A DNA stretch of 64,000 bases. Source: Antedon mediterranea (lineage: Eukaryota > Echinodermata > Crinoidea > Comatulida > Antedonidae). The notes beneath the pieces are model-generated. The model ran no database searches. It saw only the letters and a list, made by a program, of their open reading frames with translations, and was not told the DNA's origin. Below, in pieces: positions 2,997 through 7,151 of the stretch. The DNA lies in contig NC_092676.1 of the NCBI RefSeq assembly GCF_964355755.1, positions 21,062,288-21,126,287 on the forward strand, read 5' to 3'. The translations under genes were made by a program, and so were the position numbers. Numbering within the stretch: position 1 is the stretch's first letter; each line of letters begins with the position of its first letter.

Positions 2997-5900
2997 TTAG
3001 AATTCGTCGTGCTTGATGAGAGCCTCTCCGAAGTCCGTGACTTGGCTGCCGACAAAGAGATCATACTGATCTAGAATTTCTTGTTTAGTAAGTTTCTCGT
3101 CCTACGCAAAAAAAAAAAATGAAATCAATATTAATATTATAACATTTCTTATAAGTGAGCTTACAGAACGTTTCGAAACGGGTTTTATTCTCAACTGACG
3201 TTTCCTCGTCTGGCGTTGTTTATCCTACGACAATGATGAGTTGGTATGGCACCACCAATAGGTCCAAAAGGACGTGCCCACCCTCCTCTTTCTTCAATAG
3301 TTGATCATATATGTGTGACAATTCATGGGCTCTCTTATCTCTGTTCATGATTTTCCCATGCTTCCTGATGTTAATCAACTCTTTTTTTCCCCTCTTTTGT
3401 TTGCGTATTGCATTCTTTTCCAAGAATAGCAGCATCCCAATCTAGGAGGTGATTGTGCTGTCACACAGATATGATTATGATTATCTACCTATTGTTACCA
3501 TTACTTACTTTATCTTTGTCTGACTCGTGTATTAAATGCTTTGCTTCAGCTTCAGCATGGTCGTAGTCTCTGGGCATAATCCAGTCGCCGATCTCCTCCC
3601 TGTCCATCTTTCCATCCTTGTTCTTGTCACGGTGTGTACTAAATTGTTCACGCTCCGTCTTTACCCAATCTGGTTCTTTTTCTCCGTTTTGAGCAACAAA
3701 CATATCGCCTGTAGGTTATCAAATTGAATGTTAAATAGTAAATAACAGGTAATATGTAGTTTCAAAATATGTAAAGAATTCGTAAGGCATTGGTGACACC
3801 CTGTTAGGTCCCAAAGGTGTCTTCTTTAATATGGCTTCTAATGTAAAGTAAGCCCCCTTTCTTTCTTGTATCATTCTGCCTATATGTTATTACTTTAACT
3901 GGCCACTTAAGACCAGAAAGATCACATCCAGCAGAACATTTTCTGGAAAACAAATATAGTCTTACCAATATATTCTTCGAGTGAGACAGAGCCATCCTGG
4001 TTCTTGTCAACATCTTCCATTGTCTCATCAATGACAACCTCTCGCATATGATCAAACTCTTCTGGATGAAGGAAAGCAGTTAACTCCTCTTTGTTCAAGT
4101 TGCCATCACCGTCTTTGTCAGCAGCTTTCCATCTCCTTTTATCTCTCCTGATCATCTGTTTGAAGTCTATTTGTTCAGCTTCATCAAGCTTTAGAAGTTC
4201 TTCCTCTGTTAAAAAAAAGAATTATCAGTAATAACTATTTGCAATTTTGCACATATAGAATTCAAATGGTAAAGACAGTTTTATCTGCTTAAGTAGTTCT
4301 TGGGTATAGTAATAGTATTGAACATTTGAAAGCATTGTAGTAGTTGTGTCAAATATAGCAGGTATCAATTTCAACAATTCAATTTGTAGGAGCATTTTTT
4401 TACAAGTACTGTAAATTTGTGGGAATAACTACATGTCTTTCTCAGTCTAAATGGGCTGAATTGCGCACAGAATTGGACAATGTACATAACATTGTTCATA
4501 TTGTACAGCTGCCATTCGTTTGTCCACAATGACAAGGGCTGAAATGGATCAGTACAACAGGGTAACCACCTATTCTTTGCAAAAATGTTTACAAGTTCAC
4601 ACAACCCATATAAGTACAGACTACACAAGACATCCAGTTTTATGAACTCCTCCGTTGAGGAGAGTCTTAACCACGTTTGTGGCGCTCCTGCCTTAACTAC
4701 ACTACCACTCGACAAATGATTTTAAGTAAGAGGATAGAACCCTCACCAGTAGTGGCATATGTAGACTTGATGTATTCATCCAACGTCACATACTTATCAC
4801 TATCAATATTGTGCAATTGCCAACGTTCATTGACTTGTATAGAGATGTATTTATTCTGTGTATTTAAAGCATATTATACATGTCATAGTTATCAACAATT
4901 CTAATACACAAACACATTTTCTACAATATTAACAAGTAGAAATATACAGAATTTAGACAAGATTGTGTTTTAGTACACAGTAGCTACAGTATACCATACT
5001 ATTTTTTTTTTGTTCCCTGGAGTGACAAATTTAATCAAAAGAATTTGGATGTGTTTATGTATAAAAACTGTTGATAAGACCTAACAAAAATAGTTTGTTT
5101 GCTGTCAATTATTACATTTACATTTAACCTTGGTAGCAGTTGACCCCTCCTCACCCCACTTTGACAATGCAAAAGATAAGAAACAATAGAATGACAATAA
5201 ACAAAGCAAGCTTTTTGTTAGGTCTAAATTTAGTCCTAATTTAAGGACTGAAATAGAAGCTCACCGGGTAACCCGCTGTATGATGTTTTATTATATTCAT
5301 CAAATGTAATTTTGTCGTCCCCATCCACATTGTGGCCGGTCCACTGGGTGTCAACATCTTTAAACACATAAGTTTTCTGAAAGTGAAATTACGAAAATAA
5401 GTCTGTATTTTGAAAAACAAATTTAGTAGTGGTCATGCAATAATATTTAAGCCAAAAATAATTTTAATTGGTAAACATGCATTTAAAGACCAACAAGTTT
5501 TGTTGTATGGTAAATTATGTTTGTGTAAGCACCAGAACAAAACCAAAAATAAATGGGAAATACTGTATGTACCAATTAATAATAAGACAAAATAAAATTA
5601 AAAAACAAGCTAGTAGTAGGTTGTTAATTTTGATATAAAATTTGCGGTACACCATGTGTATTAGTTCTGAAAAGAACTGTTGAGTTTCTCGACGTTTCGA
5701 TCAATATACTTTGTTAATTGTTAGTAAAGTACATCATTTATGACTACTGTGTAATGAATTTAATTGGTAAAGGTCAGGCAGGGAGTTGTAAAATAATCTA
5801 AAATTATTTTACAACTCCCTGGATCAGGCAAGCTTCTCAAAAGTATGAAATACAGAATGAAATAGTTATCAATGTCCTTCAGCATGACTCTATTCATGTG

Positions 5901-7151
5901 TTTTTAATTCTAGTAAATGAATCTTCATATGTTCATCCTGTACAGTATATTTGTTCCAATTCAATTTATTTGTCATGATTTTCCGAAAGAACCAATAAAT
6001 ATGAATTATTAATTGTCAAGAGATTATATGATTGTTTATAGGAAAACATTAAATTTGGTATAAATTGTTATTTTCTACCAAAATGTGTACACAAAAGATA
6101 TTGTATGTAATCATTCAATTGTTGTGTTGTGCCACGTTTTAATAGAAAGCACACATTTCTACTGGTATATATTTCTCTTGACCTCTGGGGCATAAACACT
6201 TAGAAGGTCAACAATTAGGAAATGCATGGTGATGATGTGGCACTAATCTATTTTAAAGCAACAGACTTTCCTTCCATGCAAAATATACATAATTGAACTA
6301 TGATAGACTATAAATAATATTTTTTTAATTGAAAGTATTCATTCTTTGTTTTCAATTACCCCATCCATCATAAACATACAAAAATAATATTTTATTTTTA
6401 TTCATATTATAGCAAATAGAATGGAGGCCTATGATTATACTAGCAGTTTAATATCAATGTATCAATATTAATTAAAATGTTTAAAAACTGAAAAAAAAGT
6501 GTTAATAAAAATAGCTAGTTAGTACGAGGTTTGAAGCATTTCAGTGTGATTTACTAATTAATCATTAATATATTAATGTAGTTTCTTACCTGCTGATTTT
6601 CAACCCATAATTTCAATTCATTGACATCAACTTTTTCATCATTATTGGTGTCAATTTTATCAACAATTTCACTGAAAATTTAAAATAAAACATTATTACT
6701 ATTGTCAAATATTTTATTATTTTAATAATTTATTTATATTATCTTTTCCATATCATCTTATTAGTTAGACTAGCTAGGAGGCTACTGTAGGTCTAATTAA
6801 ATTAGTATATTATATAATTGCTTCAAAAAAGAAATAATAAAAAGACAATTATTTTCAGTTTCAGTTATTGTTTAGAGGCTAGGATAGATCAAATTAAAAA
6901 AGGCTACTAACTACCACTTACCCGAGCCTGGCCTTGCTTTCTTCTGGACTAAGATCTTGAAATGTTCTTGCCTCTTCTTCGCCTAAAAATGCATCATGAT
7001 CATAATCGGCATTGTGTCCATCACCATGAAAATGATCTGCATGACTTAATTTGTGCCCCCGATTATTACCATTGGGTTGATTTTCGGCTGGCTTGGCAGC
7101 GACTATTCCAATCAAGAAACATGCTAGGCTGAGGTGTACGATTGTTTTCAT
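2997..7151 (-). CDS. CALU: Calumenin/reticulocalbin (CREC family), multi-exon
   Basis: An ER/secretory-pathway EF-hand calcium-binding protein of the CREC family. Coding exons, 5' to 3' on the minus strand: 7151-6922, 6671-6590, then either 5376-5265 or 4855-4747, then 4205-3966, 3708-3509 and 3101-2997. All have GT-AG borders and compatible phases, giving 322 or 321 residues (human calumenin 315). The N-terminus [20 protein letters not shown] is a signal peptide and the C-terminus HDEF is the ER-retention signal typical of calumenin. EF-hand loops include [24 protein letters not shown] and [12 protein letters not shown], with weaker ones in exon 2 ([12 protein letters not shown]) and across the last junction. 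Near-identical family stretches include [19 protein letters not shown] and [13 protein letters not shown] rather than RCN1/3 is favoured by HDEF and overall similarity. Confidence 0.93.
3155..3440 (-). mobile_element. Penelope-like retroelement 3' fragment in the last calumenin intron
   Basis: Minus-strand residues around 3290-3400 read [18 protein letters not shown] followed by [12 protein letters not shown]. This is the conserved tail of the GIY-YIG endonuclease domain in Penelope-like elements (pattern 'REAI-IR-...-LNRD-..-L--IYD'). Upstream, DWDAAIL-KE lies in a different frame, so at least one frameshift has occurred. Downstream is an ACGAGGAAACGTC stretch near 3200, the position where many such elements keep a hammerhead-like motif. 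It is a truncated, inactive copy. Confidence 0.6.
4747..4855 (-). CDS. CALU: Calumenin alternative exon B (EF-hand 2 duplicate)
   Basis: 109 bases, also phase 0 to phase 1, after an acceptor ending ATACACAG and before GTGAGG. It aligns residue by residue with exon A: NERW for DTQW, and the loop [12 protein letters not shown] for [12 protein letters not shown]. Loop position 6 is Lys, so calcium affinity may differ. The polypyrimidine tract is weak, consistent with regulated use. Splicing A to B gives GAA-TAA, an immediate stop; skipping both gives a stop within five codons of the next exon. Exactly one must be chosen. Confidence 0.75.
5265..5376 (-). CDS. CALU: Calumenin alternative exon A (EF-hand 2)
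   Basis: 112 bases, entered in phase 0 and left in phase 1 through GTGAGC. It encodes 37 residues ending in the EF-hand loop [12 protein letters not shown], with all calcium-ligand positions (1, 3, 5, 12) occupied. The preceding DVDTQW matches the 'VERQW' part of human calumenin. It is the upstream member of a duplicated exon pair. Confidence 0.85.
5655..5725 (-). mobile_element. Possible second Penelope-type 3' remnant with GAAACGTCGAG motif
   Basis: On the minus strand, TATATTGATCGAAACGTCGAG is followed by AAACTCAACAG in calumenin intron 2. It resembles the 3' half of the hammerhead-like module of Penelope-like elements (stem II arm, GAAAC, GTCGAG). The matching 5' core (CTGATGA) and stem partner are missing, so it would be truncated. 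The call rests on a short motif. Confidence 0.3.
5779..5821. repeat. Perfect palindromic hairpin, 19-bp arms
   Basis: CAGGGAGTTGTAAAATAAT at 5779-5797 and its exact reverse complement at 5803-5821 are separated by CTAAA. The end sequence CAACTCCCTG recurs at 45885-45894 inside another small hairpin, suggesting a dispersed palindromic MITE rather than a local structure. It is in calumenin intron 2. Confidence 0.8.

Follow-up and report, generated by a model that had tools for sequence, protein, structure and literature searches.

A putative frame-enforced pair of alternative EF-hand exons in a calumenin-type gene, probably independent of the vertebrate CALU pair

In the window (the whole 64,000-nt stretch of DNA analysed here), a calumenin-type gene encoded on the minus strand carries two neighbouring exons, A and B, that we read as tandem-duplicated alternatives for EF-hand 2 of a luminal calcium-binding protein, with mature mRNAs predicted to carry one of the two. 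Adjacent homologous exons with compatible phases are what characterizes tandem-duplicated, mutually exclusive exons, and the anatomy of A and B is best explained as such a pair. Taken as a whole, we find it reasonably probable that the reading frame enforces the choice between A and B, that A may be the default, that the choice would switch glycosylation, and that the pair arose independently of the one in vertebrate CALU. According to PMC9741552, genes that are orthologous between human and fly have frequently acquired mutually exclusive exon pairs separately, and the pairs treated there resemble A and B in being neighbouring homologous exons of equal phase of which one per mRNA is expected. 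Neither "calu" nor "calumenin" occurs in the main text of that paper (0 occurrences), and no alternative EF-hand exons in an invertebrate calumenin came up among the titles and abstracts listed by searches of open-access papers. If the reading is true, a calcium-binding luminal protein would join the genes in which either-or exons were invented separately at the same site, and the repeated invention would suggest that there is something to gain from tuning the second EF-hand of calumenin.

The gene, located on contig C7 of a 354-Mb genome, is complete from ATG to TAA at window positions 7151-2997. Exon E1 (6922-7151, all exons on the minus strand) is coding from the ATG for 230 nt, encodes a putative leader peptide, whose hydrophobic character was judged by eye, and the N-terminal region, and ends in phase 2; E2 (6590-6671, 82 nt) encodes part of EF-hand 1, is present as a single copy and ends in phase 0. 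Exon A (112 nt) and exon B (109 nt), both passing from phase 0 to phase 1, encode two versions of EF-hand 2 and are separated by an intron of 409 nt (4856-5264) that contains two adjoining inverted repeats. Downstream follow E4 (3966-4205, 240 nt) with EF-hands 3 and 4, E5 (3509-3708, 200 nt) with the EF-hand 5 region, and the coding end in E6 (2997-3101), which closes with KHDEF and a TAA at 2999-2997. Both isoforms match the Pfam EF-hand family PF13499 in three stretches (E ~5e-25), and both end in the retention signal HDEF. From this ending and the overall likeness we provisionally call the gene a calumenin, and orthology to CALU, as opposed to RCN1 or RCN3, is presumed. The same signal, HDEF, is given for human calumenin in the relevant part of PMC12516920. 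A search for a solved CREC structure returned, among the matches listed (60 of 138), other EF-hand proteins, and relatives of a 181-aa C-terminal part were sought in two collections, where neither the 2 candidate stretches from viral_contigs nor the 47 from genome_contigs could be confirmed. A COX1 query for a mitochondrial contig had no match.

We spliced the possible transcripts in silico, and the sequence-only reading, which had claimed that only a single choice gives a complete protein, proved right in its particulars: exon A at 5376-5265 and exon B at 4855-4747 have the coordinates, AG/GT borders and phases (0 in, 1 out) it had assigned them. Joining A and B produces a premature stop after 142 amino acids, with GAA-TAA at the junction, and omitting both produces one after 108 amino acids through AGG-AAG-AAC-TTC-TAA, while either exon alone gives a full-length protein with no internal stop (322 aa with A, 321 aa with B). 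The stop falls at coding nucleotide 429 in the A+B mRNA, 544 nt before its last junction at 973, and at nucleotide 327 in the mRNA with neither exon, 425 nt before its last junction at 752. With so much sequence between each stop and the last junction, both mRNAs are predicted to be degraded, and exclusivity at the protein level would then be achieved through the reading frame, with transcripts containing both exons or neither passing to nonsense-mediated decay. Such enforcement is automatic once an exon running from phase 0 to phase 1 has been duplicated, so it is no separate evidence of a switch.

That human CALU has mutually exclusive exons in this region, as the same reading had stated, is borne out: exons 4 and 5, belonging to calumenin isoforms 1 and 2, are homologous and mutually exclusive according to PMC4465641 and PMC5877393. 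RNA FISH in MCF-7 cells gave about 50 cytoplasmic CALU copies with exon 4, 10 with exon 5 and 9 with neither, in the section of PMC5877393 reporting those counts, and the existence of CALU mRNAs lacking both exons means that exclusion need not be strict. A 2025 review gives a different human arrangement, in which exon 2 distinguishes two copies of the gene (PMC12516920). Between the probe coordinates in PMC5877393 there is a gap at 1189-1382, and these 194 nt would correspond to the human alternative exon. Since 194 nt equals the sum of E2 (82 nt) and A (112 nt), the human duplicated unit would include EF-hand 1. The human segments, in provisional sequences, and E2 plus A both amount to 64 codons. 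The two pairs are thus alike in gene family, region and the possession of homologous either-or exons, but the human unit, by the probe coordinates, is one 194-nt exon matching E2+A, whereas here only the 112-nt exon for EF-hand 2 is doubled and E2 stays single.

These comparisons bear on the further suggestion, also made from the sequence at first reading, that A and B are homologous to the vertebrate CALU pair, so that the switch would predate the vertebrate–echinoderm split. On that view the exon unit would since have been altered by intron gain or loss. The gene family, the EF-hand and the exit phase are all the same, and the human exons are likewise mutually exclusive, all of which would fit a shared origin. 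We nevertheless consider it unlikely, as the duplicated units differ (194 nt, from the probe coordinates, against 112 nt with a single E2) and the trees, if not in all tests, point away from it. A stretch of weakly E2-like DNA upstream of B could be the remnant of a larger shared unit; 14 of 1000 shuffles were as good at the DNA level in the best of 8 comparisons, but the likeness is unsupported at the protein level, where 159 of 500 shuffles did as well, and we did not accept it as an E2 remnant.

We made 14 tree comparisons, all on the same 37 alignment columns, with provisional human rows entered by hand and a long branch for B. Every one of the 14 gave the lower likelihood to topologies that match A and B to the two human exons; the AU test put p below 0.05 in 12 of them and the SH test in 7. 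The 2 AU and 7 SH results that stay above that level are the part of the outcome that a shared origin can claim: the AU exceptions arose under WAG, where one shared topology had p 0.118 and 0.164, and not one of the six SH tests on four sequences fell below 0.05. A and B did not each group with a different human exon, in comparisons that use these provisional human rows and are not independent of one another; the favoured tree separates A and B (and, where included, the paralogous exon A') from the human rows, and the L003 row, when used, falls on the human side. L003 is presumably RCN2-like and L002 Cab45-like, both being other CREC-type genes of this genome, and in gene models drawn by eye L003 has no intron at the point between E2 and A and L002, on contig C3, has an intron elsewhere. 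An intron of L002 (2718-4912, minus strand) appears by eye to hold a copia-like retrotransposon, with frames of 361 and 415 aa and repeated flanks.

Convergence is a better reading than shared ancestry, and the A/B pair probably arose independently of the 194-nt vertebrate CALU pair. As the trees are unrooted and leave B itself undated, B could be old and have been lost in vertebrates, and even then the human pair would have arisen separately.

Several lines of comparison indicate that B is a genuine exon copy. A and B are identical at 13 of 36 aligned residues, and their alignment scores 75, against a mean of -0.3 (sd 7.4) and a maximum of 28 for 2000 shuffles of B. We also scored against A all open segments bounded by AG and GT, 100-124 nt long and of length 1 mod 3, that both strands of the window and three further loci contain, 433 in total. 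Exon A scored 208 against itself, its counterpart A' in the sister gene 186 (161 with another end) and B 75 (73 with another end), while the best unrelated segment reached 12, so B is no chance open frame; high scores were confined to A, A' and B, and the scan thus yielded no further exon copies. With B as a protein query, the whole genome returned three places at E<=10, namely B, A and A'.

The divergence between the two exons carries a coding pattern. Codon positions 1, 2 and 3 are identical in 20, 25 and 10 of 36 codons, respectively (Fisher p=0.0008 for position 2 versus 3), and when A was allowed to decay neutrally to the divergence of B in 20000 simulations with assumed base frequencies, 1642 results stayed open, 10 showed the codon pattern and none did both; 5 of the 20000 kept an open frame and matched at 13 or more residues. 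Codon pattern and neutral control together reveal coding constraint on both versions, as far as one genome can tell, and B very probably functions as an alternative exon.

We weighed whether B might instead be a decaying or unused copy, a relic with no protein function. Its GC content of 0.339 is intron-like, between 0.296 and 0.355 for the flanking introns, and with constitutive E2 at 0.28 GC gives no mark of an exon for B; its acceptor is pyrimidine-poor, no B was found in the paralog, and B may never be spliced in. We hold this to be quite improbable, given that the frame is open, the splice sites are intact, the EF-hand residues are kept and the divergence is biased to third positions in a way that no neutral simulation reproduced together with an open frame. 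It is very improbable that B serves mainly as a poison exon, by which A-to-B joining would bring an early stop and less calumenin mRNA with no separate isoform: the stop after 142 amino acids does lie well upstream of the last junction, but an EF-hand frame need not persist in a poison exon, yet B keeps its frame and loop ligands and by itself gives a full-length protein.

Returning to A and B as working alternatives, we examined how the splice choice may be made. The acceptor of B has the fewest pyrimidines of the gene's six (10/20), compared with 15/20 for A; this contrast is weak, since two working acceptors, those of constitutive E5 and of sister E4, stand at 11/20. The only yUnAy branch-site candidate for B in the scanned stretch lies 37 nt upstream of B and is covered by an inverted repeat of 29 nt (5077-5049/4917-4889, 86% complementary), which is adjoined by a perfect inverted repeat of 14 bp (5225-5212/5090-5077). 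The A-B intron folds with a z of -5.0, with 0 of 100 shuffles as stable; a second run on the intron gave z -3.6, and the intron together with exon B z -4.7. Among control stretches, 2 of 60 fell below z -4, and low values also came from the 3' 600 nt of intron 2, upstream of A in the same gene (z -3.6), and from the sister gene, in one intron (z -8.0) and part of another (z -5.7); the best inverted repeat alone was equalled by 11 of 300 shuffles. Because strong structure is not rare here, the stem over the branch site of B is a candidate at most. We suggest that this stem may make A the default, with the likely branch site of B closed within it and the acceptor of B the pyrimidine-poorest of the gene, and that B would be used when the stem opens or when a splicing factor helps.

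Other devices for keeping the exons apart were tried and set aside. Docking-selector pairing of the Dscam type between introns was matched in strength by 11, 12 and 4 of 20 shuffles for three intron pairs; none of the donors is of the U12 type; and with 409 nt between A and B, an intron long enough to splice, steric exclusion is unlikely. A 245-nt part of that intron matched only itself when it was compared as a possible repeat family. The intron upstream of A holds an inverted repeat (5779-5821) whose 19-bp arms pair perfectly across a 5-nt spacer. The donors of A and B both read GTGAG (5260-5264 and 4742-4746), and the remaining donors in both calumenin genes read GTAAG, GTAAA or GTATG; the common donor is possibly a shared inheritance from the duplicated exon.

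The clearest difference between the predicted isoforms is an N-glycosylation sequon. Exon A encodes the single sequon of isoform A, N133-K-T, isoform B has none in the whole protein, and the sister protein has the same single sequon at N133. In human CALU, by contrast, we take both alternative exons to carry a sequon; here one is found only in A. A potential glycosylation site at Asn-131 of human calumenin is noted in the relevant part of PMC12516920. Since isoform A has the single sequon of the protein and isoform B has none, a glycosylation switch is likely, and the choice between A and B would likely change glycosylation and the helix surface, with the calcium-chelating residues left as they are. 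Loop positions 1, 3, 5, 9 and 12 of EF-hand 2 are N, D, D, T and E in both versions, and both loops fit the EF-hand loop consensus, of which 12 residues come from PMC9177970 and to which we added a 13th position, once position 1 is relaxed. The emphasis that had been laid on loop position 6, Asp in A and Lys in B, stands as an observation and recedes in importance, as the consensus allows both residues and the sequon difference is clearer. At residue 84 of the sister protein, the EF-hand 1 loop (DNDGDGKLDVQE) fits the strict consensus, and the loop of the window gene does not. Glycosylation is the most testable consequence of the choice, and any tuning would be open to a direct test, as the A and B isoforms differ by one sequon, which can be counted.

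The sister gene, L001, lies on the same contig at C7:8130019-8135788 and encodes a protein of 322 aa. Its exons E1, E2, A', E4 and E5 equal those of the window gene in length (230, 82, 112, 240 and 200 nt), and A' is identical to A at 33 of 37 residues. Neither protein nor DNA comparison detected a B exon or a remnant of one in L001: against two introns of the sister gene, the DNA of B was matched by 185 and 156 of 200 shuffles, and against four introns of its own gene by 14 of 200 at best. A match of the B isoform to sister E4 extends past the exon into the intron for about 20 residues, few of them identical, and we read it as an alignment artefact. In the sister intron after A', a stretch at about 5097-5115 of L001 (by eye) resembles the end of exon A with its donor (score 30, a marginal match with 1 of 200 shuffles as good). 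A gene with both A and B and a sister that has only A are thus available in one genome.

The relative divergence of the exons bears on the age of the pair. Third codon positions are equal in 24 of 37 codons between A and A' and in 10 of 36 between A and B, and among codons for the same residue, Met and Trp excepted, the identical ones number 5 of 12 between A and B, 6 of 12 between A' and B, and 150 of 208 when the two genes are compared across the five exons E1, E2, A, E4 and E5. This pattern suggests that A and B were duplicated before the gene was, B being lost later from the sister gene, with faster change in B as the alternative explanation of the divergence. The fullest version of events, in which EF-hand 2 became either-or at least twice in animals, A is glycosylated and B is not, calcium ligands are unchanged, the stem sets A as default and the sister lost B, remains a tentative and somewhat doubtful possibility.

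A sea urchin, too, is reported to have two calumenin genes on a single scaffold (PMC3034685). Elsewhere in the window, on the plus strand at 357-428, we detected a tRNA gene called as tRNA-Asp with anticodon ATC. An A at the first anticodon position is, we presume, unusual for Asp, and this gene may be a variant or a tRNA-derived copy.
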